A DNA stretch of 64,000 nucleotides from Hybos culiciformis. Taxonomy: Eukaryota > Arthropoda > Insecta > Diptera > Hybotidae. Location: assembly GCA_964007475.1 (NCBI GenBank), contig CAXFZM010000538.1:1-64000 (forward strand), written 5' to 3'. Of this stretch, positions 27,925 through 64,000 are shown in pieces. The translations under genes and the position numbers were made by a program. Each line of letters opens with the position of its first letter. The stretch's first letter is position 1. The notes under the pieces were generated by a model. The model was not told the DNA's origin, searched no databases, and worked only from the letters and a program-made list of their open reading frames with translations.

Positions 27925-28555
27925 GCTCTTTAATGCCGGTTTCAGTCTTCCTATTAGAATTCATCTTATCCCAAAATTCTTCTTCTCTTTTACTTTGTAC
28001 ATATGAGTAAAAAGGAAAAAAAATGTTCTTTAATGCGGACCGTGATCCTGCTATTAGCTTCTATTTTCATAACAAAACTATTTTTTCTCTCTTTTACCTC
28101 CTACAAATGAGTAAAAAGGAAAAAAAAAGTTCTTTAATGCCGGCCGTGATCCTGCTATTATTAGCTTTTATTTTTATAACAAAACTATTTTTTTTCTCTT
28201 TTACTTCGTTCTATGAGAAAAGAGGAAAAAAAGTTTTTTTTAATACCGGCCGTGATCCTGCTATTAGCTTTTATTTTTATAACAAAACTATTTTTTCTCT
28301 CATTTACTTCATACTATGAGAAAAGAGGAAAAAAAGTGTTCTTTAATGCCGGCCGTGATCCTGCTAGTAGCTTTTATTTTTATAACAAACCTATTTTTTT
28401 TCTCTTTTACTTCGTTCTATGAGAAAAAAGGAAAAAAAGTTTTCTTTAATACCGGCCGTGATCCTGCTATTAGCTTTTATTTTTATAACAAAACTATTTT
28501 TTTTCTCTTTCACTTCATACTATGAGAAAAGAGGAAAAAAAGTGTTCTTTAATGA
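27925..28555. repeat. ~103-bp tandem repeat, about six copies
   Basis: A unit built of TTCTTTAATGCCGGCCGTGA, TCCTGCTATTAGCTTTTATT and ATGAGAAAAGAGGAAAAAAAG recurs at about 103-bp spacing (near 27,930, 28,028, 28,131, 28,234, 28,337 and 28,440, with a last partial copy near 28,545). The first copy is degenerate. Because the period is 3n+1, each copy is read in the next frame, which produces a staircase of overlapping open frames that are not genes. It abuts the larger array directly and is probably the outermost part of the giant element's left terminus. Confidence 0.85.
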
Positions 28556-28842
28556 TGTGGGTGAAGTTAGCCATAAATTGCCAGCCATAAAAGTTGCGCA
28601 AACGAAATTTTTTTTTTATTTTAATTTTCGGTATGGCAGTGTGCGAAGTTAGCCATAAATTGCCAGCCATAAAAGTTGCGCAAACGAAATTTTTAATAAT
28701 TTTTAATTTTTGTATGGCAGCTATCACAACCAGTGCAGGGACACTAATGCCACTTTGGCTCAAGTTGGATCAAAGCCCAACCAATATTCCCCCATTCGAC
28801 GATTTTCGATACCAGTCTTCTGGCATGTTCAAAATCCTTCTG

Positions 28843-28877
<35 letters not shown>

Positions 28878-30328
28878 GTATGGCAGCTACCACAACCAGG
28901 CCAGGGACACTCATGTTGCTTTGGCCCAAGTTGGACCAAAGCCCACCCAATATTCCCCCATTCCAGGAATTTCGATACCAGTCTTCTGGCATGTTCAAAA
29001 TCCTCCTGAAAAAAAAAAATAATAAAAATTTTTGTATGGCAGCTACCACAACCAGGCCCGGGACACTCATGTTGCTTTGGCCCAAGTTGGACCAAAGCCC
29101 ACCCAATATTCCCCTATTCCAGGAATTTCCATACCAGTCTTCTGGCATGTTCAAAATCCTCCTGAAAAAAAAAAAAAATAATAAAATTCGAAAATTTTTG
29201 TATGGCAGCTATCACAACCAGGCCAGGGACACTAATGCCGCTTTGGCCCAAGTTGGATCAAAGCCCACCCAATATTCCCCTATTCCAGGAATTTCCATAC
29301 CAGTCTTCTGGCATGTTCAAAATCCTCCTGAAAAAAAAAAAAAATAATAAAATTCGAAAATTTTTGTATGGCAGCTATCACAACCAGGCCAGGGACACTA
29401 ATGCCGCTTTGGCCCAAGTTGGACCAAAGCCCACCCAATATTCCCCCATTCCAGGAATTTCGATACCAGTTTTCTGGCATGTCCAAAATCCTCCTGAAAA
29501 AAAAAAAAAATAAAAATTTTTGTATGGCAGCTACCACAACCAGGCCAGGGACACTAATGCCGCTTTGGCCCAAGTTGGACCAAAGCCCACCCAATATTCC
29601 CCCATTCGAGGATTTTCGATACCAGTCTTCTGGCATGTTCAAAATCCTTCTGAAAAAAAAAAAATTTGTATGGCAGCTACCACAACCAGGCCAGGGACAC
29701 TCATGTTGCTTTGGCCCAAGTTGGAACAAAGCCCACCCAATATTCCCCCATTCCAGGATTTTCGATACCAGTCTTCTGGCATGTTCAAAATCCTGCAGAA
29801 AAAAAAAATTCTAAATTTTTGTAAGCCAGCCATAGAATGTGTCAGCCATAGAATATTTTTTATATTTTTTAATTTTTGTATGGCAGCTATCACAACCAGG
29901 CCAGGGACACTAATGCCACTTTGGCTCAAGTTGGATCAAAGCCCAACCAATATTCCCCCATTCGAGGATTTTCGATACCAGTCTTCTGGCATGTTCAAAA
30001 TCCTCCTGAAAAAAAAAATTAAATAAAATTTCAAAATTTTTGTATGGCAGCTATCACAACCCGGCCAGGGACACTAATGCTACTTTGGCCCAAGTTGGAC
30101 CAAAGCCCACCCAATATTCCCCCATTCCAGGAATTTCGATACCAGTCTTCTGGCATGTTCAAAATCCTCCTGAAAAAAAAAAATAATAAAAATTTTTGTA
30201 TGGCAGCTACCACAACCAGGCCAGGGACACTAATGCCACTTTGGCCCAAGTTGGACCAAAGCCCACCCAATATTCCCCCATTCGAGGATTTTCGATACCA
30301 GTCTTCTGGCATGTTCAAAATCCTTCTG

Positions 30329-30361
<33 letters not shown>

Positions 30362-31139
30362 GTATGGCAGCTACCACAACCAGGCCAGGGACACTGATGT
30401 TGCTTTGGCCCAAGTTGGACCAAAGCCCACCCAATATTCCCCCATTCCAGGAATTTCGATACCAGTCTTCTGGCATGTTCAAAATCCTCCTGAAAAAAAA
30501 AAAAATAAAAATTTTTGTATGGCAGCTACCACAACCAGGCCCGGGACACTCATGTTGCTTTGGCCCAAGTTGGACCAAAGCCCACCCAATATTCCCCTAT
30601 TCCAGGAATTTCCATACCAGTCTTCTGGCATGTTCAAAATCCTCCTGAAAAAAAAAAAATAATAAAATTCGAAAATTTTTGTATGGCAGCTATCACAACC
30701 AGGCCAGGGACATTAATGCCGCTTTGGCCCAAGTTGGATCAAAGCCCACCCAATATTCCCCTATTCCAGGAATTTCCATACCAGTCTTCTGGCATGTTCA
30801 AAATCCTCCTGAAAAAAAAAAAAAATAATAAAATTCGAAAATTTTTGTATGGCAGCTATCACAACCAGGCCAGGGACACTAATGCCGCTTTGGCCCAAGT
30901 TGGACCAAAGCCCACCCAATATTCCCCCATTCCAGGAATTTCGATACCAGTTTTCTGGCATGTCCAAAATCCTCTTGAAAAAAAAATAAAAATTAAATAA
31001 AAATGTTTGTATGGCAGCTACCACAACCAGGCCAGGGACACTAATGCCGCTTTGGCCCAAGTTGGACCAAAGCCCACCCAATATTCCCCCATTCGAGGAT
31101 TTTCGATACCAGTCTTCTGGCATGTTCAAAATCCTTCTG

Positions 31140-31176
<37 letters not shown>

Positions 31177-32730
31177 TATGGCAGCTACCACAACCAGGCC
31201 AGGGACACTCATGTTGCTTTGGCCCAAGTTAGAACAAAGCCCACCCAATATTCCCCCATTCCAGGATTTTCGATACCAGTCTTCTGGCATGTTCAAAATC
31301 CTGCAGAAAAAAAAAATTCTAAATTTTTGTAAGCCAGCCATAGAATGTGTCAGCCATAGAATATTTTTTATATTTTTTAATTTTTGTATGGCAGCTATCA
31401 CAACCAGGCCAGGGACACTAATGCCGCTTTGGCCCAAGTTGGACCAAAGCCCACCCAATATTCCCCCATTCCAGGAATTTCGATACCAGTTTTCTGGCAT
31501 GTCCAAAATCCTCTTGAAAAAAAAATAAAAATTAAATAAAAATGTTTGTATGGCAGCTACCACAACCAGGCCAGGGACACTAATGCCGCTTTGGCCCAAG
31601 TTGGACCAAAGCCCACCCAATATTCCCCCATTCGAGGATTTTCGATACCAGTCTTCTGGCATGTTCAAAATCCTTCTGAAAAAAAAAAAAAAAAAAAAAA
31701 ATTTTGTATGGCAGCTACCACAACCAGGCCAGGGACACTCATGTTGCTTTGGCCCAAGTTGGAACAAAGCCCACCCAATATTCCCCCATTCCAGGATTTT
31801 CGATACCAGTCTTCTGGCATGTTCAAAATCCTGCAGAAAAAAAAAATTCTAAATTTTTGTAAGCCAGCCATAGAATGTGTCAGCCATAGAATATTTTTTA
31901 TATTTTTTAATTTTTGTATGGCAGCTATCACAACCCGGCCAGGGACACTAATGCCACTTTGGCCCAAGTTGGACCAAAGCCCACCCAATATTCCCCCATT
32001 CCAGGAATTTCGATACCAGTTTTCTGGCATGTCCAAAATCCTCTTGAAAAAAAAATAAAAATTAAATAAAAATGTTTGTATGGCAGCTACCTCAACCAGG
32101 CCAGGGACACTAATGCCGCTTTGGCCCAAGTTGGATCAAAGCCCACCCAATATTTCCCCATTCCAGGAATTTCGATACCAGTCTTCTGGCATGTTCAAAA
32201 TCCTGCAGAAAAAAAAAATTCTAAATTTTTGTAAGCCAGCCATAGAATGTGTCAGCCATAGAATATTTTTTATATTTTTTAATTTTTGTATGGCAGCTAT
32301 CACAACCCGGCCAGGGACACTAATGCCACTTTGGCCCAAGTTGGACCAAAGCCCACCCAATATTCCCCCATTCCAGGAATTTCGATACCAGTCTTCTGGC
32401 ATGTTCAAAATCCTCCTGAAAAAAAAAAATAATAAAAATTTTTGTATGGCAGCTATCACAACCAGGCCAGGGACACTAATGCCGCTTTGGCCCAAGTTGG
32501 ACCAAAGCCCACCCAATATTCCCCCATTCCAGGAATTTCGATACCAGTCTTCTGGCATGTTCAAAATCCTCCTGAAAAAAAAAAATAATAAAAATTTTTG
32601 TATGGCAGCTATCACAACCAGGCCAGGGACACTAATGCCGCTTTGGCCCAAGTTGGACCAAAGCCCACCCAATATTCCCCCATTCCAGGAATTTCGATAC
32701 CAGTCTTCTGGCATGTTCAAAATCCTTCTG

Positions 32731-32765
<35 letters not shown>

Positions 32766-32835
32766 GTATGGCAGCTACCACAACCAGGCCAGGGACACTC
32801 ATGTTGCTTTGGCCCAAGTTGGAACAAAGCCCATC
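28556..32835. repeat. Left terminal array, ~155-167-bp unit, about 26 copies
   Basis: Each unit runs TATGGCAGCTACCACAACCA, GGCCAGGGACACTAATGCCG, CTTTGGCCCAAGTTGGACCA, AAGCCCACCCAATATTCCCC, then CGATACCAGTCTTCTGGCAT, GTTCAAAATCCTCCTG and an A-run of 9-31 bases. Variants differ at fixed sites (GCCG/TGTTG/GCCA; CCAGGAATTTC or CGAGGATTTTC). Four units (29,820, 31,326, 31,857 and 32,222) carry an extra GTAAGCCAGCCATAGAATGT spacer. Blocks of about 535 bp are duplicated (31,010-31,548 and 31,549-32,078), which is higher-order structure. The first two units (28,556-28,710) are diverged and contain GCCATAAAAGTTGCGCAAAC twice. Long open frames across the array exist on both strands only because the unit lacks stops. 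Confidence 0.95.
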
Positions 32836-32840
32836 CTTTT

Positions 32841-33553
32841 TTTTTTTTTTTTTTAAACACATTTTTATATATAATTTTTTTTTTGTTTAAATCCTTAATA
32901 GGATATATGTTCATAAATATATATACATATATAGACATTTGTCTACAAAAAATTTTTTTTTTTTATTATTTACTGCATATAAATTTACTTTATTCTGTGG
33001 TTCTGGTACAGGAGTTTACTACGTTGTAGGTATTATGCAATTTCTTTGTTTGTTGTCATTCAACAATTCAATATCAAAAAAAATCATGAAAAAATAAAAT
33101 TATAAAAAGAATAATTAGTATAAAAATATTTCTTTAAAAGATTCTTGTTAAAATATTTTTGAAAAGACCGATTTATCTAAATACTTTTGTCATGAAAAAA
33201 AATTTTTGTTGTGTTTTTTTTTTGTAAAAATTAAAATATTTATTTTAAAATTTCATTCTTCAAAAAAAAAATTTATTTTGTTGTAACTTCGGTTTTATTT
33301 AAAAAATTTTTATTTTCCTATCTGGCAGTTCATAAAATAAAAATATCATATAGCGCAAACTGTATTTGCAGCGATATTTTTACTGTGCTGTGATCTTTTT
33401 ATTTATTGTGTGTGTGATCGTGGTGAAAAAAATTATTGACGTTGACATTTGTCAGCCAGAATAAAAATATTAAAAACAATAACAAACATTTGGGATGGGA
33501 ATTTATTTTTTTGTATTTTAATTTTATTTTTTCTATTTTTATAATAAATTTAT
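32841..33553. repeat. Left inner arm of the giant inverted repeat
   Basis: The arm starts after a T-run at the end of the array (TTTAAACAC) and ends at CTATTTTTATAATAAATTTAT. The reverse complement of 59,893-60,660 matches it almost base for base. The differences are a few substitutions, homopolymer slippage, a ~12-bp indel near GTGATCGTGGTG, and about 70 extra bp at the array edge on the right. No gene is recognised. The segment GACGTTGACATTTGTCAGCC is conserved in both copies. Confidence 0.92.
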
Positions 33554-36640: not shown

Positions 36641-36786
36641 AATTTGTTCGATACAATGATTAAAAAAAAATCTTCAAAAAAAAATAAGAAAAACCACTTA
36701 ATTAAATAATTTTTTTTATTTATTAAATATTTTTTAACTTATAAATTTTTGATTTTAATTAAAGTCCAAATGCTCCGGAACAGGGG

Positions 36787-36898
36787 CCTGAAAAAAAAAA
36801 TATATATTTATTATTATGGGTACATACAGGTAAGTTATATTATTATATTATACTATTTAATTATTTTTATCTTTTGTGAAAAATAACCAAAAACTTAC
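36787..36898 (-). other. 3' UTR intron of the left coiled-coil/RGG gene
   Basis: On the minus strand the stop codon TAA (36,899-36,901) is followed directly by GTAAGT. 111 bases later, TTTTTTTTTTCAG precedes GCCCCTGTTCCGGAGC. The right-hand gene copy has the same arrangement (TAG then GTAAGT; TTTTTTTTTTCAG then GCCCCTGTTGCAGAGC). Conservation of both sites between the copies is good evidence that the intron is real. Confidence 0.75.
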
Positions 36899-37321
36899 TT
36901 AATAATAATATGGACGTCCGCGGTAGCCACGCCCATTATATCCGCGTCCTCGATAGCCGCGTCCGCGGTAGCCACGACCGCGGCCACGTCCGCGATCTTC
37001 AGGAGCGCCATAGTAATAATATGTCTGTTGTATCGGCCGATTTTGCTGACGTTGTTGCTGCAGTCTTTGTCTGCTGTCTGCGATCTGTTTCTGCAGCTGC
37101 TTGAGGCTCCCCTCAAGAGAAACCTTTTTCTCCGTTTTCTTGAGGTGATCCTCAAGCAACTTCAGTTCCGCCTCTTTTGATTTTAATTCTGCTGCTGCTG
37201 CTTCTATTTCTTCTTCTTTAATATTCATCTCCACTTCCCTTATGGCTAGCTCCTCTTCTTTTACTTTTGCCCTCTCTGCCCGCTCTTGCTCAAGCAGTCT
37301 TTTTTCTCTTTTTGTTGCCAT
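36899..37321 (-). CDS. Coiled-coil protein with RGRGY-rich tail (left copy)
   Basis: A 140-residue protein. Residues 1-85 are highly charged and heptad-like (KREKRLLEQERAERAKVKEE, then EAELKLLEDHLKKTEKKVSL), predicting a long coiled coil. A Gln-rich joint (about 86-98) leads to a tail of RGRGYRGRGYNGRGY type ending RPYYY. RGG/RGY tails usually bind RNA or drive condensation, and the coiled coil should multimerise; this is inference, as I know no named family. The ATG is chosen because TTTATTTCAG stands immediately before it. A matching donor (TATAG|GTAAGT at 37,692/37,691) suggests a 5' UTR intron, 37,322-37,691. An inverted paralogue sits at 55,133-55,564. Over 34 core codons the two differ by nine synonymous and no amino-acid changes. 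It is transcribed outward, toward the left array. Confidence 0.8.
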   Translation of the reverse strand: MATKREKRLLEQERAERAKVKEEELAIREVEMNIKEEEIEAAAAELKSKEAELKLLEDHLKKTEKKVSLEGSLKQLQKQIADSRQRLQQQRQQNRPIQQTYYYYGAPEDRGRGRGRGYRGRGYRGRGYNGRGYRGRPYYY

Positions 37322-37769
37322 CTGAAATAAAGAAAAGAAAATTTTTATATTTATTTTGGCAAGAGTTAATTAGTTTTCTAACTCAGTAATTCTTTCGTCG
37401 GTTTTCTAGTTCAGCTTGCTCGTAGTGGAAGAAAGTAGATAATAAAGTTTGGATAACTTTGTCCTAGTTTAACAACAATTTTTTTTTGATCCAACAAAAA
37501 AAAGATCAAACGCTCAAATCTACCTTTCGAAAAATTTTGTAGGTAAGTATATTGTTTTATTTCGGAAATTAACTTCCACAGAGGACGGCTCCAAATTTGG
37601 ACACTACACTGAACTTTTAAACCAAAAACTGTTTCTCCAACCGCATTTTTCCTGGAAATTTGAAAATTCTTATAAAAAAAAATTGACTTACCTATAAATA
37701 CCAATGTAAATTTTAAACAAAACTGAAATTTTTAACTTTTTTTTTTTTAAAGTGAACCGAATTGGACGA

Positions 37770-38390
37770 GTTTTGAAATTTAAATGAAATAATTAATAGT
37801 TCAACTCTATGCAAAAAAATACCTACACACGCAAAAAATATGAAACAAAATTAAAAATTCAACACTACGCAGTGTGTCCAGATGCAAAACATCTTTACCT
37901 TAAATTAAAATAAAATCATTCATAAAAAAAATGCTTATGAAGTTTTGAGAAAAAAAAACTATTTTTCAAAATATATTGTCTTAATCCTTTTTTGAAGCGT
38001 CTCAAAAATGTTCGAGTGATTCTATTTGAAAGGTAATTGAACGTAGATAATCTTAGCACTTCAACTTTTGTGGCCACTGTGTTGACGGAAAGTAGCAAAC
38101 TTGTCTTTTTGGAAATAAATCATAAAAATATTGAACCAAAGAAATAAAAATTTTATTAGCTACTATATATTTAAAATTCTTATCAGAAATATTAAAAAAG
38201 TGAAATGTAACGAATATATGTAAAAAGTTTTAGTATCGCACACTTAATTTTTAGAATTTTCTACTTTGGCACAATCATTGAAAAGTTTGGCCTCCACTGA
38301 CTTGATTTTAATTTACTATTATAACAAAATTTTTAACTTCAACTCGAGGGAAATTTTGTGGTGAAAACTAATAAGAATAAACTAATAACT
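37770..38390 (-). promoter_or_regulatory. Conserved upstream region of the left coiled-coil gene
   Basis: Three blocks occur in the same order upstream of both gene copies: TTAGTTTTCACCACA (here near 38,360), then CAGTGGAGGCCAAACTTTTC with AATGATTGTGCCAAA (near 38,265-38,305), then TTGCATCTGGACACACTGCG with TAGTGTTGAATTTTT (near 37,850-37,890). Sequences between the blocks have diverged, which suggests that the blocks are promoter or 5' UTR elements. No TATA box can be singled out in such AT-rich DNA. Confidence 0.6.
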
Positions 38391-38591
38391 GTTGACTAAC
38401 AAAAAAAAACAAAAATTAATGCTTTTTTTTTCAATAAAATATAAAATTAATGTGGTGAAATGTCAAAAAAAAAAAAAATCTTTTGTGACGCGTCTCATTT
38501 GTTTCTAAAATTCAAATATTTTTTTGAGAAAAATTTTGGATTTTTAAATTAAAAATTAAAAGTATTTAAAAAAAATATATCTGTACTTAAT

Positions 38592-41500: not shown

Positions 41501-41920
41501 CTGGTAAATTTCGATGCTACGGTACGCGGACGCGCACAGTTTATTTCTGAATAAAAACTACCGTGAAAACCGATTTCTAAATCATATTTCTTAATAAATT
41601 TTAATCACATTTTAATAAAATTCAAAAAAAAAAGGCAAGATATAAATTTTATCGATTTTTTGATTTAAAAAAAAAATTTTTTTTAATGACAAATAAAATT
41701 TAAAAATATTTGTTGGACTAAAAGATATCAAAGTTATTCAAATTTTGATAGGTGATGTATTCAAATACAATATAAACAAATTGATAGTTATTTCTTGTTA
41801 TACCTACATACTTTATTAAATGTTCTATTAAATATTTTAGAAAGTGGAATTCTGTCAGACATTTCAATGACACCAGATACCGAATCGCATCATGAACCAA
41901 AATGGCCATCAATCTTATAA
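38592..41920 (+). pseudogene. Puratrophin-type RhoGEF (DH-PH), captured C-terminal half
   Basis: RhoGEFs of the puratrophin/PLEKHG4 type exchange GDP on Rho GTPases through a DH-PH pair. Eight exon pieces can be joined: 38,592-38,923 (GGCDRCEDNQKLSRVCSCQS), 39,338-39,662 and 39,720-39,842 (DH: REMIVTERDYVRSYYVIENY, KMDLASYLLKPVQRMGKYAL), 40,011-40,274 and 40,340-40,553 (PH: FLFEELVLFSKARRF, RFRKRKPDDTW-type core), 40,772-40,888 (EIRLAEMSPMGIGNKPCLDI), 40,984-41,236 (RHSFAGSLPLESVRSSKRPN) and 41,841-41,920 (SGILSDISMTPDTESHHEPK). Most junctions have GT-AG sites and matching phase. About four residues are missing in the DH domain after VDELL, the 40,888/40,984 junction is out of phase, and exon 7 shifts frame twice. 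The N-terminal half is absent. The stop at 41,918 could be the natural end. Confidence 0.85.
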
Positions 41921-42164
41921 ACGGCAAGAAACTATTCAAAAATTAGACGAAAAAGATAAAGAACTAATAAAATTACCCAAATTAAGTGAAGAAACTAGGG
42001 CTGGTTTAAAGCAAGCGGAGAAAATAACAAAGCATCTTGAAAATCAAATAACCGAGAAAAATGAGAAAATAAAACGTTTTGAAGATGAATTACAAGAATC
42101 AGAAGAAACACTTAAAATAGTAATGAGTTTTATAGAAAGTAAAAATCCTAAAAGGAAAGCTTAA
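41892..42164 (+). CDS. Unrecognised coiled-coil open frame after the RhoGEF piece
   Basis: Ninety codons starting with ATG at 41,892. The first ten overlap the last RhoGEF exon in another frame. The remainder is strongly charged and heptad-like (EETRAGLKQAEKITKHLENQ, then KIKRFEDELQESEETLKIVM) and ends RKA. The composition is that of a real coiled coil, not random AT translation. I recognise no family. It could be another captured exon, or RhoGEF-downstream sequence in a shifted frame. Confidence 0.4.
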   Translation: MNQNGHQSYKRQETIQKLDEKDKELIKLPKLSEETRAGLKQAEKITKHLENQITEKNEKIKRFEDELQESEETLKIVMSFIESKNPKRKA

Positions 42165-42221
42165 TCAACATTTTATATATTTTAAAATTACTTAATTTAG
42201 TTTTTTTACCATAAGTTCAGG

Positions 42222-42438
42222 CATAGATTAAGAATACACCAAGATGGGAAGTTTCATACAACATTTTTTCAGTCTTTTTTGGTATTTTATTGTGAAGGTG
42301 TTAGTAAAACTAAATAAAATTCTTTTCATACATTGATAATTATCACGTATTTTATTTTGTTTTACTAACACATTGACTTAAAAATACCAAAAATAATGTT
42401 GTATGAAGCTTCCCATCTTGGTGTATTCTTAATCTATG
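42222..42438. mobile_element. 217-bp MITE with 7-bp flanking duplication
   Basis: The termini form a long inverted repeat: CATAGATTAAGAATACACCA and AGATGGGAAG on the left, with their complement on the right and matching TTTTGGTATTTT and GTGTTAGTAAAAC near the centre. GTTCAGG flanks it on both sides (42,215-42,221 and 42,439-42,445). The whole unit folds into one hairpin. It has no coding content, and the superfamily is unclear from a 7-bp duplication. Confidence 0.8.
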
Positions 42439-42445
42439 GTTCAGG

Positions 42446-53197: not shown

Positions 53198-53205
53198 TTT
53201 AATAT

Positions 53206-53387
53206 TCTGAAAAATAAGAAAATAATCATAAGAAAATATTGATCTAAATCCCCAGAAAAAAAGACGTCTGGAAACCCTATTCGAACGAGACTTCTTTTTT
53301 CCCTCGTAGCCATAGATTTAGTTGCAAACAAGAAGGCGCGAACAGAATTTCTCACTCGTAGCCATAGGATATGTTGCGAAAAAGGAA
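53206..53387 (-). promoter_or_regulatory. Transposase 5' flank with a duplicated motif
   Basis: The sequence ACTCGTAGCCATAGGATATG, TTGCG and its variant CCTCGTAGCCATAGATTTAG, TTGC stand about 67 bp apart just upstream of the transposase acceptor. They could be promoter elements, but nothing beyond the repetition shows it. Confidence 0.35.
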
Positions 53388-53963
53388 GGTTTACCCCTCA
53401 TTTATAACATATTAAAAAATACGAATTATCACATAAAAATCGATTTGTATGAGATTATGCAGTAATTCATTTAAAAACGAAATATCACATAAAACCAAAA
53501 TGAATTTGAAAATAAATGAATTATCTCATAAATTTTATGTGATAATTCGTTTTTAAATGAATTAGTGCATAAAATTTTCGTTCGATTTTTTTTATGAGAT
53601 AATTCATTTTTTAATTTATGTACTAATTCATTTTAAAATGAATTATCACATAAAAATAATTTTTTATGAGATAATTAATTTTTCAATTTATGTGCTATTT
53701 CGTTTTTAAATGAATTATCCCATAAAAAAAATTTATGTGATAAGTCATTTTAAAAATTATGTGATATGACATTATGCGATAATTCACGGAGCCTCATTTA
53801 TATGGCTGTTTTCGATTAAAATGAAGATTTTTTTTGAATGTGTGTGTAAAAGTTCTATAAAATTTTTTCATTGTTGTATAAAACTTATACAACTTTTACA
53901 CACACATTCAAAAAAATCTTCATTTTAATCTTTGAAAACATCCTTTGTAAATGGGGGGTTAAC
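53388..53963. mobile_element. Hairpin MITE split by an AT-rich insertion
   Basis: The outer ends, GGTTTACCCCTCATTTATA on the left and, read inward from the right, GTTAACCCCCCATTTACAA, begin a long palindrome. It continues through GATTAAAATGAAGATTTTTT and GAATGTGTGTGTAAAAGTT on both sides. The left arm is interrupted at 53,407-53,791. Without the insert the element would be a hairpin of about 180 bp. It lies just upstream of the transposase gene. Confidence 0.7.
53407..53791. repeat. AT-rich insertion built of AATTATCACATAAAA motifs, 11-bp duplication
   Basis: A direct repeat CCTCATTTATA (53,396-53,406 and 53,792-53,802) brackets 385 bp. The interior is composed of at least nine direct and inverted copies of AATTATCACATAAAA and AATGAATTATC-like words. 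I see no open frame. The class is unknown; an 11-bp duplication does not fit the common cut-and-paste families. Confidence 0.6.
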
Positions 53964-54599
53964 TCTTTTTCCAAATTTTCTGGACTTATTTCGGATTTTT
54001 AATTTTCGGGATTTATAATCTCCCAGAATAAGGAAATTGTGTATAAATTGTAACCGAACTACAATTTTCACACAATTTCAAGGGGAATACTGCCGAATGG
54101 AAATATACCGAATGGTCAAAATTTCTATTGAAAAATATTAATTTTTATATAAATTATGACCGAAAATTGTATGAATTGTGACCGGAGAAATTAGGTCCTG
54201 TAGCCGAAACAAAAATGAAACCGAAGAATGCAACAAGTAAACTACCGAAAATCATTATCATCATAGACTAAAAAAAAAACCCCGTAATTAGATTAAGTAG
54301 TCTTGCATCATTTGAAGCTATTTTAGGCCAGAAGCATAATTTTATGGGTCATAAGGTTCAATTTGCCTAGATTCAAGTTACTTGGGAGCCTCAATAGGAA
54401 AATATTTCCCGCCATAAGATATTTAAATTTTCATAAATTTTTTTTATTTATAATATAAAACACTTACCTGAATAATTATACTGAATTATAATTTCACTTA
54501 AAATTTAATTTCTTTATATTTTATCTTTTTAAATAAAATTATTTTCCAATTAAAATTTTTTTTTTTATTAAAAGCTTTAAACAAAATTTATGTTAGTTT
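53964..54599. other. Interior AT-rich DNA
   Basis: No gene recognised between the split MITE and the upstream blocks of the right coiled-coil gene. Confidence 0.45.
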
Positions 54600-55060
54600 T
54601 AAAACTGTTTTTTGCTATTAGTTTTCACCACACAATTTCCCGAAATTGCTATAATTTCCCTTTTGGGAGTCTTGCCACCAGGTGAGGTTAAAAATTTTGT
54701 AACAATAATAATTTAAAAGGATAGTCAGTGGTGGCCAAACTTTTCAATGATTGTGCCAAACTTGTACATTAAAAAATTTAAGTGTGCCACAAATCACAAT
54801 AAAACCTTTTTACATTTTACTTTTTTAATGTTTCTGATAAGAATTGTAAGTAGCTCAAATAAGTGCAAAAAGAGCGATTTTGAAGTCTTCGTCACATTTT
54901 TAAAAGACACCATTACTCTCATAAACTTACATTGACGTGATATGTGGAAATTTTATTTTCAGTTTTTGCATCTGGGCACACTGCGTAGTGTTGAATTTTT
55001 TTGTTTCATATTTTTTGAGTGTGGCCACACTAAAAGAGTTGAATTATTATTTATTTCATT
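54600..55060 (+). promoter_or_regulatory. Conserved upstream region of the right coiled-coil gene
   Basis: This is the counterpart of the left block and has the same order of words: TTAGTTTTCACCACACAATT (near 54,620), CAGTGGTGGCCAAACTTTTC with AATGATTGTGCCAAA (54,726-54,765), and TTTGCATCTGGGCACACTGC with GTAGTGTTGAATTTTT (54,963-55,000). The shared blocks are separated by diverged sequence, as expected of promoter elements kept by selection. Confidence 0.6.
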
Positions 55061-55132
55061 CCAATTTAAATAATCGTGCGAAATAGTCGTTAAAAAAAAA
55101 AATTGCAGTAAATTTATATATTTCTTAAAAGT

Positions 55133-55564
55133 ATGTCCAATAAGCGGGACAAAAGGATTTTAGAGCAGGAGCGGGCGGAGAGGGCAGCTCAAAAAGACCA
55201 GGAGTTGGCACTCAGGGAGGAAGAAATAAAAATAAAAGAGGAAGAAATGGATGCGGCACAGGGTGAGCTAAAAGCAAAGGAGGCAGAGCTGAAGTTGCTT
55301 GAGGATCACCTCAAGAAAACCGAAAAAAAGGTTTCTCTTGAGGGGAGCCTCAAGCAACTTCAGAAGCAGATTGCGGACAGCAAGGTGAAACTGCAGCAAC
55401 AGCGTCAACAAAATCAACCCATTCACCAAAATTTTTTTTATGGCGAAGATCGTAGACGTGGCCATCGTGGTCGTCCCTACCGCGGACGCGGCTATGGTGG
55501 TCGGGGCTATGGTGGACGTGGTGGACGTGGTTACCGCGGACGTCCTTATAACTATTATTATTAG
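55133..55564 (+). CDS. Coiled-coil protein with RGRGY-rich tail (right copy)
   Basis: A 143-residue paralogue of the protein at 36,899-37,321, in inverted orientation. Residues 1-85 form a charged coiled coil (MSNKRDKRILEQERAERAAQ, then EAELKLLEDHLKKTEKKVSL). The Gln-rich linker QQQRQQNQPIHQN follows, then a tail of GRPYRGRGYGGRGYGGRGGR type ending RPYNYYY. The tail should bind RNA or self-associate; the function is inferred. Nine synonymous and zero replacement differences separate the copies over 34 core codons, so both have been under purifying selection. The gene points outward, toward the right array. The transposase gene starts 1.9 kb away in the opposite direction. Unlike the left copy, no acceptor abuts the ATG, so its 5' UTR intron seems to have been lost. 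Confidence 0.82.
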   Translation: MSNKRDKRILEQERAERAAQKDQELALREEEIKIKEEEMDAAQGELKAKEAELKLLEDHLKKTEKKVSLEGSLKQLQKQIADSKVKLQQQRQQNQPIHQNFFYGEDRRRGHRGRPYRGRGYGGRGYGGRGGRGYRGRPYNYYY

Positions 55565-55740
55565 GTAAGTTTTTTTTTAATATATATAAATAATATTCCT
55601 TTGAACACCTACCTGTATGTACCTGTAACAATAAATGTATATATATATATATTTTTTTTTTCAGGCCCCTGTTGCAGAGCATCTCAAAATATTTCAACAT
55701 ATTTTATAAAATAAATAAAAGAAATTAAATAAAAAAAATT
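55565..55740 (+). other. 3' UTR intron and terminal exon of the right coiled-coil gene
   Basis: The stop TAG is followed at once by GTAAGT. TTTTTTTTTTCAG ends at 55,664, and the terminal exon begins GCCCCTGTTGCAGAGC and carries AATAAA-type signals at about 55,708 and 55,728. The left copy shares donor, acceptor and the first nine exon bases. Confidence 0.75.
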
Positions 55741-57414
55741 ATTTAATTAAATCATTTGTAATTTTTTATTTTGAAGACTTTTTTTAGCAGATTTTTTATC
55801 GACATTTAGATATCGTGAGCGAAATATTATAAATATGACTGACTATTATTTTATTGCTAATAAATATAATACAATAAAATAAAATTTCAAGTTTGCAGAC
55901 TTCTGAACATGTTTATTATAACCAAGTCCTATATAGAAACAAAAAAACTTAGAATTTGGTAATTGTAGCTGGAATACACCTACAAAATAAAGTTTCACAA
56001 AATACAGGTAAGTAACTATGCATTTAAAAATATCCATTTATTTTTGGAATGCATAATAATGAACGTCCTTACGATAAGCTGATAGTAGTAATCAACAAGA
56101 TTAAAAATTTAAAGTCTTTTGCCTCCCGTTTCTACCAGTTCCTCAATTAATTTTTTATTTGTTTAAGTTAGCATTCCTTAATTTTTAATCAATAAATATT
56201 ATTATTATAAATTTAAATTTTTAGAATATAAGTTTGCAATCAAGATTTTTATAAATAGTTTACATTAAGATATAATCTCTATAATGAAAAAATGTTTAAC
56301 TAAAATAATTTTTAAGATCAAGAAATGAATAATACACAACCACTTCTAGTTTCAAATATTAAGTGTATCTTTCATACAAAAACAAATAATTTCTATTAAG
56401 GGATTACAATTATTTCAATTTATATAATAGTATCCAATGTTCTATTTATTGCCATGTTATCAATTAATTAATATTCATGATTTACTTCAAAAATGCCAAA
56501 ATATGATAGGAACCTAAAATATGTTAGGAAATATATTATATGTTAGTGATAATGTCAATTTGTGTTATTTATTTTTTTGAATAATACTTATTAATGGCTT
56601 CAAAGTGTGAAACTGAAAGTCGTCGGAGGTAAATACAGTCAAAAAACAGGTTTATTTTAAGTTTCTTTCTTTATTTTTTCTTTAATTAATTTTCATAATT
56701 ACTCAACTCAAATCCCAATTTCAAAAATGCATTAACCTTTTATTTGTGGCATTTAAGTCTGGGGTATTATATTTTCTTTTCAAATAGAAACTCTATTTGT
56801 CCTATAAAAAAAGGGTGGGAAATTGTATACAATATGCTTTTTAAGCTTAAAAACAATTGTTAGAATTAAGCACTTTTTCGTTAATTAAAACTTTGTTTGC
56901 ATTCTACTTAATTCCCTTATAAATGTGTAGTCAACATACATACAACGTAAAATTGATTATTTTAAAGAATTTTATTTTAGTTGAAAAAATTTTACCTGCA
57001 ATAGATAAAAGTATAAATATGTATAGTCCTTTTCTTCCTAAATCAAATCATTTAAATTTAATTTAAAAAATATTTATAAATTATATGAAAAATAAATAAT
57101 CGAGTTGGATAATTTGTTTTGTAACTTTATTAAAGATTATATTTAATTTCATTTTAGTTTTAGGAGATAAAAACTTGGAAATTGCTGAATGATAACTAAT
57201 TATAATGATTACATATTAAAAATTATTTAAATGAAGCTTTTGTGCGATCTAATTTTCTAAGTGGTTATTAATTCGAGCTTATATTTTTAAGGTTTGATTT
57301 TTTTTCTATACAGGAATGAATATAAAATATAACAATTTTTATCTCCCAAGTCTAATTTCAAATAAAAAAATATTTAAAAACTTAATTCAAAAAACACAAT
57401 ATCAAAACACAAAA
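55741..57414. other. Interior AT-rich DNA
   Basis: Weak similarity to the left copy's 3' flank persists to about 55,810 (TTTTGAAGACTTTTTT). Beyond that I recognise no gene. Confidence 0.45.
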
Positions 57415-57762
57415 TCAAAACATCTTATCGATGTAACAGACAGCTTCGTTATCACAGCCGCCGTATAAAATTTTTGAACCATATGAATCGAAACTGTTAA
57501 CTGCTTTTTCAATATCACTTATAATTGATGTTACATTAACTTTTGATTTCGTTCTTTCACAATTCAACCATGGATTTATTTCTTCGTCGACTAAACCTGT
57601 CGTCGACGATTTTAAACTGATCATTAAATCTGAAGTTGCATTACTAACATATTGCCAAAGCTCACCATCTTCTGATGAAGTTAACAATTTATTATGATTA
57701 TCAAAATTGATTTCAGCTATTGGACTGGAATGTGCACTCAGATAAGAAGCAGGATATTTTGT
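57415..57762 (-). pseudogene. Nup43: Nup43 last exon, captured fragment
   Basis: Nup43 is a WD40 subunit of the Nup107-160 complex of the nuclear pore. After a CTTGTTTTTAG acceptor the minus strand is open for 115 codons to a TGA. It encodes TKYPASYLSAHSSPIAEINF, then KLLTSSEDGELWQYVSNATS, EEINPWLNCERTKSKVNVTS and KILYGGCDNEAVCYIDKMF. The order (WD40 blade with SEDG-x-LW, a variable loop, W-L near a V-TS strand, and a last blade with GCDxEA-x-Y at the very C-terminus) matches Nup43. The frame is intact, but all earlier blades are missing, so it cannot make a working propeller. It is on the same strand as the filzig piece next to it, yet belongs to an unrelated gene. Confidence 0.75.
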
Positions 57763-58568
57763 CTAAAAACAAGAAAAAATTAAATGGTCGTGAATAAAAA
57801 TAAATTTATACCTATATCTTTTCATTTATTGTATGAAATAATTAAAACAAAAATTTTAAATAATTTAATTTTTCAGAAACTTCAAAACTGAAACTCAGAC
57901 TTTATTAAATATGAACAAATAAGCCCGCAAATTTAACAAAAAAAAAAGAAGTTATTTGTCCGGTATCCGGTGCAATCGTCGTACATTTCAGTCGTACTTT
58001 GAATAATTAAGAAATTTGGATTATATCAAATAAGATGTTAAAAACGTGATTATAAAAAAAAGAAAAAACTGAATTTTAAAAACGAATCTGCGTTGTACAA
58101 CCATTATAATTTTTTAAAAAAATGTTCACAAATTCAACCGGTTATATGACATCAGTGAAATTATTTTACAAGCCGATAATTTCTAACAAAATATCAAACA
58201 TTTGAAGATATTTCGTGCCACAATCTAATCTTATAGTAAAGAACAAAAAAAAATACTTCCACAAATTATAATTATTTATCTATAAAAAAAATGGATGACG
58301 GAACGAAATAACAAACGAGCGATATAACATTTTTCCCCAATGACAAGATAATTAACTATTTGCGACAATTACCTTCATTCTGGGGAATAAAAAAAAATCT
58401 TTCCAAGCATAGACTATTTTTTTGACATTTTGTAGAGAAATTATATTAAACTTAAATAGTGTGGGTGGACGCTAAAATATTAAAAGAATGTCAAATTAAT
58501 AAAAAACAAGGAAATACTTGGAATATATCGGATATTGCAAAATGAACCAAACACTATATAATGCTTAC
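57763..58568. other. DNA between the Nup43 and filzig pieces
   Basis: AT-rich. A good donor (GTAAGC) of the filzig exon points into it, but no following protease exon is present, so the serine-containing part of the enzyme is absent. Confidence 0.55.
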
Positions 58569-59893
58569 CAATGTGTGTATCGTAATGTATCTCACTCTCT
58601 AATTCCAGTAAAGCCAAATCATTTTCAAATGTTGCTGCATCATATTGTCGATGAACGATAACTCTTTTAACGTTCTTTGTTACAGAACGTTTAGTTTCTA
58701 AATCGCCATTTATATCAAATTTACCAAAAACTGCTACTAAAGATGCCAAAAACCTAAAAGAATTTATTTAGTTATTATTATTTTAAGTTTTTAATAAATT
58801 ATTAATTAAATATTTTGATTCAAAATTAATTTAAATAATATAGGAAGGAATCTATTGAATTACAAACTTTCATAACAGGTGAAGTATTTTTTTTTAAGAA
58901 CCCAAACGGTTATGTTTCACATGATTCATTCTAGTGTAGATATTGATTCATGAATATACATTTAAATAAAAAAAGAACCACAATTATTAACGAGATTCAA
59001 ATTCTTGTATTTGTGGTATATAGTTGTACATAAATTTCATTTTTTTTTACATTTAAATGAAAAAAAAAATATTACTGAAATTTACATATAGTATACGCAT
59101 CTGCAATTTATTTCAATTTTGCAATACATGCATACTCATGTTTCTAAGACATAAAACCAATATAATTTATAGTTTAAAGGAAAATCCATAAATTTTTATG
59201 TTATTTGCTTTTCAGATTTTATTACCCTGGTTGACAATGAGCTGCTGTTATCACAAATTTATTTGTTATTAATACCCCACCACATTTGTTCTTTGTAAAT
59301 AAACCTAACCATGTTGATTCTCTGACTAGAACTTGCCAAGGCCATTCACCAAATACAGTACCCTTACCACCAACAATTCGACCCGATTTAACATGAGGAC
59401 CTACACCACATTCTAAAAATAAAATAAAAAATTTCAATATTTATTATGTTATATTTATGTGTGGTACATAAATGTGAACCAATGTTATGCGTTGAATATT
59501 TTATACATAAAATGAAAATAAAATTGAACTTATAAGAATTTTTCTAAATATTTCAACCGTGCTATAAATGTTGATCAGAATATCCGTAAGGAAGGACATT
59601 ATTATTTTTTAAGTATAAAATTCAAAGATTTGCTTACGGAATCGTCTTGTCTCTTCGTTAGATTCAATATCAATTTCATTTTCTTCATCATTTCCCTGCT
59701 CTTCAATAACTTCTTCTTCAATCGGTTCGATTATAGTGGTTGTCTGAGTCCTTTTTGTAGGTTTTGTGGCCTTTGATTGTTTTTTTAGTTGTTGTTGCTG
59801 GTCGTTTAATGATTGTCGTAGGCTTTTTATTATTTGCAAGCTTTTTAGTTGTTAATCCAGGTCGTTTAGTTGTAACTGTAGGTCTTTTAACAT
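58569..59893 (-). pseudogene. flz: filzig-type trypsin-like serine protease, captured N-terminal part of the domain
   Basis: Filzig is a membrane-bound epidermal protease of insects. Three exons on the minus strand join in phase. Exon 59,893-59,638 is the Thr/Lys-rich stem (KRPTVTTKRPGLTTKK, then EEEVIEEQGNDEENEID), with one frame shift near 59,775. Exon 59,412-59,226 has CGVGPHVKSGRIVGGKG, CGGVLITNKFVITAAHCQPG, with the RIVGG activation site and catalytic His. Exon 58,753-58,569 has FLASLVAVFGKFDINGDLET, SVTKNVKRVIVHRQYDAATF and ENDLALLEL with the catalytic Asp. Donor and acceptor phases agree (Q|CG, PG|FL, HI|G). Everything after DTHI is absent, including GDSGGP with the catalytic Ser, so no active protease can be made. 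Its stem exon begins exactly where the right inner arm ends (59,893), which marks a capture junction. Confidence 0.9.
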
Positions 59894-60660
59894 AAATTTA
59901 TTATAAAAATAGAAAAAAAAAAATTAAAAAAAAATTAATTCCCATCCCAAATGTTTGTTATTGTTCTTAATATTTTTATTTTGGCTGACAAATGTCAACG
60001 TCAATACTTTTTTTTCACCACGATCAATTCAGTTCACACACAACAAATAAATAAAAAGATCACAGCACAGTAAAAATATCGCTGCAAATACAGTTTGCGC
60101 TATATGATATTTTTATTTTATGAATTGCCAGATAGGAAAATAAAAATTTTTTAAATAAAACCGAAGTTACAACAAAATAAAAATTTTTTTTTGAAGAATG
60201 AAATTTTAAAATAAATATTTTAATTTTTACAAAAAAAAAACACAACAAAAATTTTTTTTCATGACAAAAGTATTTAGATAAATCGGTCTTTTCAAAAATA
60301 TTTTAACAAGAATCTTTTAAAGAAATATTTTTATACTAATTATTCTTTTTATAATTTTATTTTTTCATGATTTTTTTTGATATTGAATTGTTGAATGACA
60401 ACAAACAAAGAAATTGCATAATACCTACAACGTAGTAAACTCCTGTACCAGAACCACAGAATAAAGTAAATTTATATGCAGTAAATAATAAAAAAAAAAA
60501 ATTTTTTGTAGACAAATGTCTATATATGTATATATATTTATGAACATATATCCTATTAAGGATTTAAACAAAAAAAAAATTATATATAAAAATAATTTTT
60601 TTATTAATGTAAAACAAAATAAATTAAATTAAATATATAATTGCCTTATTTTAGTGTTTA
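59893..60660. repeat. Right inner arm of the giant inverted repeat
   Basis: It is the reverse complement of 32,841-33,553 with very few differences. It ends at the array through a T-run shared with the left side (left GGAACAAAGCCCATCC, right GGGTGGGCTTTGTTCC). About 70 bp near 60,590-60,655 (AATTTTTTTATTAATGTAAA and following) is present only here. Confidence 0.92.
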
Positions 60661-60676
60661 AAAAAAAAAAAAAAAA

Positions 60677-60747
60677 GGGTGGGCTTTGTTCCAACTTGGG
60701 CCAAAGCAACATGAGTGTCCCTGGCCTGGTTGTGGTAGCTGCCATAC

Positions 60748-60783
<36 letters not shown>

Positions 60784-61236
60784 CAGAAGGATTTTGAACA
60801 TGCCAGAAGACTGGTATCGAAAATCCTCGAATGGGGGAATATTGGGTGGGCTTTGGTCCAACTTGGGCCAAAGTGGCATTAGTTTCCCTGGCCTGGTTGT
60901 GGTAGCTGCCATACAAAAATTTTTATTATTTTTTTTTTTCAGGAGGATTTTGAACATGCCAGAAGACTGGTATCGAAATTCCTGGAATGGGGGAATATTG
61001 GGTGGGCTTTGGTCCAACTTGGGCCAAAGTGGCATTAGTGTCCCTGGCCTGGTTGTGGTAGCTGCCATACAAAAATTTTCGAATTTTATTTTTTTTTTTT
61101 TTTTTCAGGAGGATTTTGAACATGCCAGAAAACTGGTATCGAAATTCCTGGAATGGGGGAATATTGGGTGGGCTTTGGTCCAACTTGGGCCAAAGCAACA
61201 TGAGTGTCCCGGGCCTGGTTGTGGTAGCTGCCATAC

Positions 61237-61269
<33 letters not shown>

Positions 61270-61890
61270 CAGAAGGATTTTGAACATGCCAGAAGACTGG
61301 TATCGAAAATCCTCGAATGGGGGAATATTGGGTGGGCTTTGGTCCAACTTGGGCCAAAGTGGCATTAGTGTCCCTGGCCTGGTTGTGATAGCTGCCATAC
61401 AAAAATTTTCGAATTTTATTATTTTTTTTTTTTTTCAGGAGGATTTTGAACATGCCAGAAGACTGGTATGGAAATTCCTGGAATAGGGGAATATTGGGTG
61501 GGCTTTGATCCAACTTGGGCCAAAGCGGCATTAGTGTCCCTGGCCTGGTTGTGATAGCTGCCATACAAAAATTTTCGAATTTTATTATTTTTTTTTTTTT
61601 TTCAGGAGGATTTTGAACATGCCAGAAGACTGGTATGGAAATTCCTGGAATAGGGGAATATTGGGTGGGCTTTGGTCCAACTTGGGCCAAAGCAACATGA
61701 GTGTCCCGGGCCTGGTTGTGGTAGCTGCCATACAAAAATTTTTATTTTTTTTTTTTTTTCAGGAGGATTTTGAACATGCCAGAAGACTGGTATCGAAATT
61801 CCTGGAATGGGGGAATATTGGGTGGGCTTTGGTCCAACTTGGGCCAAAGCAACATGAGTGTCCCTGGCCTGGTTGTGGTAGCTGCCATAC

Positions 61891-61925
<35 letters not shown>

Positions 61926-64000
61926 CAGAAGGATTTTGAACATGCCAGAAGACTGGTATCGAAAATCCTCGAATGGGGGAATATTGGGTGGGCTTTGGTC
62001 CAACTTGGGCCAAAGTGGCATTAGTGTCCCTGGCCTGGTTGTGGTAGCTGCCATACAAAAATTTTTATTATTTTTTTTTTTCAGGAGGATTTTGAACATG
62101 CCAGAAGACTGGTATCGAAATTCCTGGAATGGGGGAATATTGGGTGGGCTTTGGTCCAACTTGGGCCAAAGTAGCATTAGTGTCCCTGGCCGGGTTGTGA
62201 TAGCTGCCATACAAAAATTTTGAAATTTTATTTAATTTTTTTTTTCAGGAGGATTTTGAACATGCCAGAAGACTGGTATCGAAAATCCTCGAATGGGGGA
62301 ATATTGGTTGGGCTTTGATCCAACTTGAGCCAAAGTGGCATTAGTGTCCCTGGCCTGGTTGTGATAGCTGCCATACAAAAATTAAAAAATATAAAAAATA
62401 TTCTATGGCTGACACATTCTATGGCTGGCTTACAAAAATTTAGAATTTTTTTTTTCTGCAGGATTTTGAACATGCCAGAAGACTGGTATCGAAAATCCTG
62501 GAATGGGGGAATATTGGGTGGGCTTTGTTCCAACTTGGGCCAAAGCAACATGAGTGTCCCTGGCCTGGTTGTGGTAGCTGCCATACAAAATTTTTTTTTT
62601 TTTTTTTTTTTTTCAGAAGGATTTTGAACATGCCAGAAGACTGGTATCGAAAATCCTCGAATGGGGGAATATTGGGTGGGCTTTGGTCCAACTTGGGCCA
62701 AAGCGGCATTAGTGTCCCTGGCCTGGTTGTGATAGCTGCCATACAAAAATTTTCGAATTTTATTATTATTTTTTTTTTTCAGGAGGATTTTGAACATGCC
62801 AGAAGACTGGTATGGAAATTCCTGGAATAGGGGAATATTGGGTGGGCTTTGATCCAACTTGGGCCAAAGCGGCATTAGTGTCCCTGGCCTGGTTGTGATA
62901 GCTGCCATACAAAAATTTTCGAATTTTATTATTTTTTTTTTTTTTCAGGAGGATTTTGAACATGCCAGAAGACTGGTATGGAAATTCCTGGAATAGGGGA
63001 ATATTGGGTGGGCTTTGGTCCAACTTGGGCCAAAGCAACATGAGTGTCCCGGGCCTGGTTGTGGTAGCTGCCATACAAAAATTTTTATTATTTTTTTTTT
63101 TCAGGAGGATTTTGAACATGCCAGAAGACTGGTATCGAAAATCCTCGAATGGGGGAATATTGGGTGGGCTTTGGTCCAACTTGGGCCAAAGTGGCATTAG
63201 TGTCCCTGGCCTGGTTGTGGTAGCTGCCATACAAAAATTTTTATTATTTTTTTTTTTCAGGAGGATTTTGAACATGCCAGAAGACTGGTATCGAAATTCC
63301 TGGAATGGGGGAATATTGGGTGGGCTTTGGTCCAACTTGGGCCAAAGTAGCATTAGTGTCCCTGGCCGGGTTGTGATAGCTGCCATACAAAAATTTTGAA
63401 ATTTTATTTAATTTTTTTTTTCAGGAGGATTTTGAACATGCCAGAAGACTGGTATCGAAAATCCTCGAATGGGGGAATATTGGTTGGGCTTTGATCCAAC
63501 TTGAGCCAAAGTGGCATTAGTGTCCCTGGCCTGGTTGTGATAGCTGCCATACAAAAATTAAAAAATATAAAAAATATTCTATGGCTGACACATTCTATGG
63601 CTGGCTTACAAAAATTTAGAATTTTTTTTTTCTGCAGGATTTTGAACATGCCAGAAGACTGGTATCGAAAATCCTGGAATGGGGGAATATTGGGTGGGCT
63701 TTGTTCCAACTTGGGCCAAAGCAACATGAGTGTCCCTGGCCTGGTTGTGGTAGCTGCCATACAAATTTTTTTTTTTTCAGAAGGATTTTGAACATGCCAG
63801 AAGACTGGTATCGAAAATCCTCGAATGGGGGAATATTGGGTGGGCTTTGGTCCAACTTGGGCCAAAGCGGCATTAGTGTCCCTGGCCTGGTTGTGGTAGC
63901 TGCCATACAAAAATTTTTATTTTTTTTTTTTTTCAGGAGGATTTTGGACATGCCAGAAAACTGGTATCGAAATTCCTGGAATGGGGGAATATTGGGTGGG
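60677..64000. repeat. Right terminal array, same unit inverted, about 20 copies, continues past the window
   Basis: Read on the + strand, each unit is a T-run followed by CAGGAGGATTTTGAACATGC, CAGAAGACTGGTATCGAAAT, TCCTGGAATGGGGGAATATT, GGGTGGGCTTTGGTCCAACT, and ends GGTAGCTGCCATACAAAAATT. Two units carry the spacer ATTCTATGGCTGACACATTC (62,400 and 63,575). The order of variants mirrors the left array, with 63,404-63,910 equal to 29,520-30,026. Translations of the unit on both strands are open but are repeat artefacts. Confidence 0.95.

Follow-up and report, generated by a model that had tools for sequence, protein, structure and literature searches.

A likely giant foldback-type Mutator-like transposon with a transposase gene and Pack-MULE-like cargo in Hybos culiciformis

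Do two opposed tandem arrays on one contig of Hybos culiciformis form the ends of a single, very large transposon, or do they bracket chromosomal DNA of another origin? The window, i.e. the whole stretch of DNA analysed here, covers 64,000 nt of contig CAXFZM010000538.1 (GCA_964007475.1), and its right edge cuts the second array. The two arrays consist of a 160-bp unit in opposite orientations and, together with inner arms that are 96% identical, flank about 26 kb of interior. We find that this locus of >36 kb is likely (probability of about 0.6) one giant transposase-encoding foldback-type Mutator-like transposon with Pack-MULE-like cargo, and we infer that the whole >36 kb is mobile as a single unit. 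A more specific proposal, to which we give roughly even odds, is a self-mobilising insect foldback Pack-MULE of ~37 kb: the DDE-Ulp1 transposase that it encodes would move the 4–6 kb arms along with an accumulating set of host gene segments, introns included, which come from at least five genes.

Terminal arms built of tandem units

The initial annotation had described two inverted arrays of a ~160-bp unit and a pair of nearly identical inner arms, and self-comparison bears out both. Specifically, the 129-bp core of the unit (period ~160 bp) has 46 self-BLAST matches in the 64-kb window, 25 on the + strand and 21 on the − strand, all inside the two arms and none outside them. The left tandem array (28712–32833, + strand; TRF and self-BLAST) holds 25 copies, the innermost truncated, and the right one (60677–64000, − strand; TRF and self-BLAST) holds 21 copies up to the window end, which cuts the array. 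The left inner arm (32861–33553, + strand) mirrors the right inner arm (59892–60593, − strand) at 96.3% identity over 707 columns, and these arms of ~0.7 kb differ by substitutions and indels. Read by eye, the inner ends of both arrays fall at an identical position within the unit and then run into a stretch of T, after which, at the array border, the right arm carries ~60 bp absent from the left.

On the left, the main array is preceded by an outer domain of 103-bp units (27925–28554, + strand; TRF 27976–28554, 5.6 copies, 88%), whose diverged outermost unit starts near 27925 by eye and provides the candidate left terminus. Two 82-bp units (28563–28720, + strand; TRF) link this domain to the main array and resemble a variant spacer of that array (63 columns, 78%, E = 4e-7). 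The left arm, with outer, tandem, and inner domains, totals 5.6 kb, and the right arm, which lies partly within the window, shows there the tandem and inner domains. These are long inverted repeats made of tandem units, the defining feature of foldback elements, with the termini themselves remaining candidates. Further inward, no similarity of 50 bp or more, as would be left by one long decayed arm, is found between 33.55–36.66 kb and 55.79–59.89 kb.

Units are equally alike across the arms and inside each arm—i.e. full-core identity is 95.2% within the left array (24 cores), 95.4% within the right (19 cores), and 95.4% between them—and the longest block mirrored between the arrays spans 919 bp at 100% identity. 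The two arrays are homogenised, yet their unit order is not significantly collinear (shared-order score of 8, against a mean of 6.2 and a maximum of 9 in 2000 shuffles).

A MULE-type transposase with an Ulp1 domain

The interior encodes an uninterrupted ORF of 1,497 codons (48704–53197, − strand), with acidic 40-aa repeats, a MULE-type DDE core, an Ulp1 (C48) domain, and a C-terminal zinc-finger-like region. When 100 sequences were generated from a Markov model of the interior, their longest stop-to-stop stretch was 172 codons. The DDE pattern of MULEs consists of D, D, C-x2-H, and E residues, and the ORF carries D682, D754, C808/H811, and E987, all identical in P0001, the only relative from protein-database searches and a distant one (E = 6.9e-11). 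The Pfam MULE match (PF10551) falls below its cut-off of 27.6 bits in the ORF (E = 0.0013, 19.6 bits) and is likewise sub-threshold in P0001 (22.9 bits), and we assign the ORF to MULEs because of the catalytic residues and this one distant relative. The Ulp1 domain exceeds its curated Pfam cut-off and is in the same frame as the transposase. The 1,497-codon MULE-type ORF that had been reported in the interior stands, and the arm architecture and catalytic residues uphold the earlier foldback-type and Mutator-superfamily assignment. The earlier account of the interior was correct as to the transposase and overlooked the cellular-gene pieces, the Ulp1 domain, and a nested inverted repeat.

Other assignments for this ORF were rejected. 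Within the acidic repeats, Pfam reports Glyco_hydro38C2 (E = 1.7e-4, 22.1 vs 22.0 bits), with no stretch passing alone, and we treat this as a low-complexity match. Peptidase_C5 (adenovirus protease) scores 19.1 bits with the whole ORF, where the cut-off is 21.3, and 23.0 bits with the C-terminal piece, and this match overlaps the stronger C48. An endogenous virus was also discarded, with no convincing viral family among the ORFs scanned. Scans of the viral_contigs and genome_contigs collections confirmed nothing, and since these hold viruses and prokaryotes, the empty scans say little about an animal element; Rfam (gathering threshold) and ARAGORN gave no hits in the 64-kb window. A single-sequence AlphaFold model of the transposase core was uninformative (pLDDT 35.6). 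By eye, a Cys/His cluster is visible near residue 524.

MULEs of the Phantom group have an N-terminal FLYWCH zinc finger (PMC3169594), and here no Pfam match to FLYWCH was found, with Pfam at its limit (whole ORF, E = 0.01; residues 500–1060, E = 10). Ulp1 (C48) domains are described in plant MULEs, including Kaonashi/KI-MULE and families of melon, rice, and grapevine (PMC13317346, PMC2528002). Among these, cases in the orientation of the transposase occur in grapevine (some families in the same orientation and frame), melon, and rice, and in melon the domain occurs in TIR-bearing MULEs (PMC13317346, PMC2528002). KI-MULEs are described as lacking TIRs and as carrying their ULP domain in the orientation opposite to the transposase (PMC2528002), whereas the Hybos element has long inverted arms and Ulp1 in the transposase frame. 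It also has foldback arrays, which the available text on plant ULP1 MULEs does not mention (PMC13317346, PMC2528002).

Cellular-gene pieces and alternative readings of the interior

The interior contains parts of five cellular genes with introns kept—i.e. RhoGEF-PH, RME-8, PIKfyve, Nup43, and a trypsin-type protease. Cellular families are matched by 9 of 97 interior ORFs and, in a like Pfam scan, by none of the 78 ORFs of the left flank (Fisher P = 0.005, with ORFs of the same gene not being independent). The RhoGEF (DH)-PH segment (39330–41148, + strand; Pfam) retains introns and a C-terminal tail, is open, and may be a working gene. It matches RhoGEF (E = 2.7e-14 and 8.7e-9) and SOS1_NGEF_PH (E = 3.3e-10 and 1e-10), and its closest solved relative is Trio; its splice sites and tail (40771–41148) were assigned by eye.

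The other pieces are partial, with PIKfyve, Nup43, RME-8, and the trypsin domain each covered only in part. The RME-8 (DNAJC13) fragment (44003–44853, + strand), from part of the N-terminal region, matches PF19432 at positions 147–214 (below cut-off), 216–267 (E = 2.2e-16), and weakly 361–385 of 818, and is apparently broken by a frameshift and stops, its continuation being read by eye. The PIKfyve fragment (45522–47021, + strand) spans the chaperonin-like domain (7k2v_A residues 180–283, E = 1.9e-20) and the next exon, and is broken by an in-frame stop at 46297. Its next stretch is colinear with 7k2v_A 307–352 at a weak E of 0.8, with the remainder read by eye. By itself, 46300–46899 has no significant PDB match, and thus the second exon rests on position and on by-eye reading against known relatives. 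Assignment of RME-8 and of the protease depends in part on the same grounds. The Nup43 fragment (57415–57762, − strand), a C-terminal part, matches residues 248–371 of 375 in 6lk8_C (E = 3.6e-8), an entry labelled 'Nup42', as well as 5a9q (E = 5e-7) and 4i79 (E = 6e-7), both labelled Nup43. Lastly, a trypsin-type protease fragment (58480–59440, − strand) comprises the N-terminal domain half in two exons (PF00089 positions 1–44 and 66–104 of 220). The GDSGG motif is absent from all six frames of the window, and a Thr/Lys-rich stretch upstream of the fragment extends to 59892, where it meets the inner arm. With the arms taken as the TIRs, cellular-gene fragments lie between MULE TIRs, which is what defines a Pack-MULE.

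Could these pieces be resident host DNA? Two foldback arms or elements may have landed in opposition around a chromosome stretch in which a MULE and gene relics were present beforehand, in which case the 26 kb would be host DNA with at most Ising TE-like mobility. Large segments between foldback elements are reported to move in Drosophila (PMC6431247), and the intron-bearing segments, including one open RhoGEF-PH segment, would fit such a locus. We nonetheless regard this composite origin as unlikely: each side has a single arm, on both sides the inner domain lies closer to the centre than the tandem domain, and the inner arms end against unrelated DNA. Several gene pieces are also partial or broken, a transposase lies inside, and the 78 flank ORFs scanned match no cellular family.

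The interior also holds a second inverted repeat that is older than the outer one. Its left part (36663–38352, + strand) matches the right part (54672–55785, − strand) in three blocks of 72–78% identity by self-comparison. Each part contains a coiled-coil and RGG-repeat ORF (36899–37369, − strand, and 55112–55564, + strand), and the two copies share 78% of residues over 137 aligned codons. A dN/dS of 0.11 (NG86) to 0.25 (YN00) points to purifying selection on this gene pair. The lower identity of this repeat, compared with 96% for the inner arms, would suit a smaller, older MULE (36663–55785, with the RGG genes and transposase) nested in a non-autonomous foldback that is served by a transposase elsewhere, and Tetris and FB4 also have no identified transposase in the available text (PMC4079207, PMC8277862). 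Such nesting is improbable in our view, as no 8–12-mer flanks the repeat in register, the sole match being a low-complexity 8-mer out of register, and the repeat holds a gene pair under selection and has no tandem units.

An assembly artefact, in which collapsed or misplaced repeats caused the second array to be joined falsely in inverted orientation, could account for mirrored blocks as long and as identical as those seen but is very improbable, because unit order differs between the arrays, the inner arms have diverged by substitutions and indels, and the right arm has extra sequence at its array border.

Proposed movement and known relatives

Under the preferred reading of one giant transposon, the repeated units would serve as binding sites for the transposase, which would cut the outer ends of both arms, and the whole element would insert with a duplication of 8–11 bp, the target-site duplication of the MULE superfamily (PMC6446971). 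The units would stay similar through unequal exchange or gene conversion. The five gene pieces are predicted to have been copied from the host. Because introns are kept and the protease piece lies directly against the inner-arm border, capture was probably from DNA, with breaks in the arms being mended by gap repair or template switching. The Ulp1 domain may target SUMO-modified proteins of the host or chromatin, and the paired RGG-protein genes may provide an accessory function.

Among known systems, Tetris of Drosophila virilis is a foldback whose long inverted termini comprise outer flanking, tandem (~220-bp units), and inner domains (PMC4079207), a plan also seen in the Hybos left arm. As described there, Tetris has terminal repeats of up to 1.7 kb, three complete copies without a conserved ORF, and no transposase found (PMC4079207), unlike the Hybos element with its 5.6-kb left arm, unbroken transposase, and gene pieces inside. 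Similarly, Ssk-FB4 of Drosophila, called Pack-MULEs, have foldback ends round one host gene segment, and FB4 is non-autonomous, its mobilising transposase not being identified in the available text (PMC8277862). The Hybos element shares the foldback ends, but holds parts of five genes and encodes a transposase. The same text reports no Pack-MULE in 100 animal reference genomes, with the fly Ssk-FB4 as the known exception (PMC8277862). If our reading is true, the Hybos element is the sort of autonomous partner that foldback elements have lacked, and allows tests of the route of gene capture in animals and of what an Ulp1 domain does for a transposon.

Size is a further difference. None of the Pack-MULEs in Jiang et al. 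2004 is reported to be longer than 7 kb, and a cargo above 6 kb is said to lower cut-and-paste mobility (PMC6431247). If true, our reading describes a natural gene-capturing vehicle several times above this supposed limit, and one that tests whether tandem terminal repeats allow a DDE transposase to move very large DNA. Tm1, a Mutator/Foldback of root-knot nematodes, also combines terminal inverted repeats containing tandem units (~14 bp) with a MULE transposase, in this case Phantom-type and 496 aa long, within 2.6 kb (PMC3169594). A 2026 survey of arthropod MULEs gives complete elements of 1.9–10 kb, transposases of 313–1136 aa, and TIRs from 13 bp to ~1.5 kb, and the words Ulp1, Foldback, and Pack-MULE are absent from its available text (PMC13359780). 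At >36 kb, the Hybos element shares the DDE MULE superfamily with these elements and is >3 times longer than the largest of them (PMC13359780), in agreement with the unusual size first claimed for it.

Terminal arrays and inner arms

The initial annotation proposed a giant foldback Mutator-like transposon running from 27.9 kb to past the window end. Its arrays and inner arms stand, whereas mobility of the whole as one unit is inferred, like the mechanism of capture. Specifically, the opposed arrays of one ~160-bp unit are borne out by TRF, an inverted-repeat search, and self-BLAST. Within the window, self-BLAST places 46 matches to the unit core, 25 at 28712–32833 and 21 in mirror orientation at 60677–64000 (where the array is still running), and finds none outside both arrays. 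TRF also delimits an outer array of 103-bp units at 27976–28554, outside the left array; by eye, a single diverged unit that starts near 27925 precedes it. Inside the arrays, the inner arms (32861–33553 and 59892–60593) are 96.3% identical over 707 columns.

Averaged over full unit cores (24 in the left arm and 19 in the right), identity is 95.2% for pairs from the left arm, 95.4% for pairs from the right, and again 95.4% for pairs that span the two. The arms share a 919-bp mirrored block that is 100% identical, and five successive unit types occur in common order when A-runs are compressed. Taken over the whole arrays, the succession of unit types shows no significant collinearity (score 8 vs. 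a mean of 6.2 and a maximum of 9 in 2000 shuffles). It therefore seems that the arms trade sequence with each other, as opposed to having arisen recently by mirror duplication. The motif TATGGCAG belongs to the unit and is at most a candidate recognition site; the left arm holds 26 copies, all on one strand, the right arm has 20 on the opposite strand, and the rest of the window has none.

The transposase ORF

The transposase ORF (48704–53197, minus strand) has 1,497 codons. By comparison, 100 Markov sequences based on the interior contained no stop-to-stop ORF longer than 172. Acidic 40-aa repeats, encoded by 120-bp tandem repeats at 52087–52665 (4.8 copies, 96%), lie in its first part, and a borderline Pfam match to Glyco_hydro38C2 within them is taken as spurious. 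The core has a weak Pfam MULE match (E 0.0013, under the curated cut-off) and also matches one database protein, the distant relative P0001, at E 6.9e-11 and 26% identity. P0001 itself likewise falls under the MULE cut-off (E 1.2e-4, 22.9 bits), and it has the same residues as the ORF at D682, D754, C808, H811, and E987.

Pfam identifies the C-terminal part as a C48/Ulp1 peptidase (42.9 bits vs. a cut-off of 20.7), in which H1339, D1356, and C1402 are assigned to the usual motifs. A zinc-finger-like tail follows (FYVE_2, E 6e-4, under cut-off). MULEs with a ULP1 domain are known from plants: KI-MULEs carry it reversed, whereas certain grapevine, melon, and rice families have it in the same orientation (PMC2528002, PMC13317346). 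The open-licence papers covered here yielded no animal MULE with this domain.

Interior repeats and probable cargo

A second, more diverged inverted repeat lies inside the element (36663–38352 and 54672–55785; three blocks, 72–78%), with three further short matches at 61–68% in the same comparison; a duplication in register around it was sought and none was found. An outward-pointing ORF on each side encodes RGG repeats and a coiled coil, and no Pfam family reaches its cut-off for either. Across 137 aligned codons, the pair differs at 18, 16, and 59 sites at codon positions 1–3, respectively, and dN/dS is 0.11 (NG86), 0.15 (LWL85), or 0.25 (YN00), so purifying selection appears to have kept both copies. 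Short palindromic stretches at 53411–53956 and 42222–42438 could be small hairpin (MITE-like) insertions.

The interior also holds pieces of cellular genes. RhoGEF and PH domains (39330–40594; Trio is the closest solved relative) are read from four ORFs; introns are present, and their GT and AG borders were placed by eye. The RME-8 N-terminal region is represented by profile positions 147–214 (23.4 bits, under cut-off), 216–267 (E 2.2e-16), and, weakly, 361–385 of 818, with an apparent frameshift near 44435 plus stops; its presumed continuation was read by eye against DNAJC13. A PIKfyve chaperonin-like domain matches 7k2v_A (E 1.9e-20), and the stretch after it, which has an in-frame stop at 46297, lines up colinearly with that chain, though weakly (E 0.8). 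The 200-aa ORF at 46300–46899 by itself has no significant PDB match, and the Pfam scan reports no kinase family. Nup43 is present as its C-terminal part (residues 248–371 of 375). A trypsin-type protease, which we take to be filzig-like, is present as an N-terminal half in two exons; GDSGG is absent from all six frames of the window, and the Thr/Lys-rich stretch upstream reaches 59894, at the inner-arm border (59892).

We compared the interior with the left flank using ORFs of at least 42 codons that passed a complexity filter, plus two added by hand. The scan took in 97 of 106 such ORFs from the interior, without the nine that overlap the transposase, and 78 of 88 from the flank, without nine in a palindrome and one over a reverse transcriptase. 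At E 0.005 or better, cellular families were found in 9 of 97 vs. 0 of 78, with a Fisher P of 0.005 that is a guide only, since ORFs from one gene are not independent. Nup43 is not among the nine, having been found by a PDB search applied to interior and not flank ORFs. The sole flank family is the reverse transcriptase (ORF 5360–7072, RVT_1, E 9e-27), which by eye seems to sit in a degraded non-LTR retrotransposon. The flank palindrome (16137–16959; 380-bp arms, 98% complementary, 63 bp between) is GC-rich (46% vs. 19–22% in adjoining kilobases) and may be a foldback or MITE-like element of small size. The ORF at 9314–9601 (plus strand) resembles by eye the C-terminal dimerisation region of a hAT transposase, without a Pfam match at E 0.005.

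Comparison with known elements

The whole is most simply explained as a single foldback-type MULE whose middle is coding and laden with cargo. A composite locus in place of one element, a set of nested elements, and a misassembly in place of a real element have each become less probable. The element differs from known foldback and MULE elements in scale and content. In the available text of a 4268-genome survey, the longest complete arthropod MULE is 10 kb, TIRs measure at most about 1.5 kb, and transposases reach 1,136 aa (PMC13359780). The Pack-MULEs that Jiang et al. 2004 described are no longer than 7 kb (PMC6431247). A screen of 100 animal genomes counted 370 Pack-TIRs; insects had none of them, and none was a Pack-MULE (PMC8277862). 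Tetris of Drosophila virilis has the same domain plan (PMC4079207), and in Ssk-FB4 of Drosophila foldback ends flank host gene sequence (PMC8277862).
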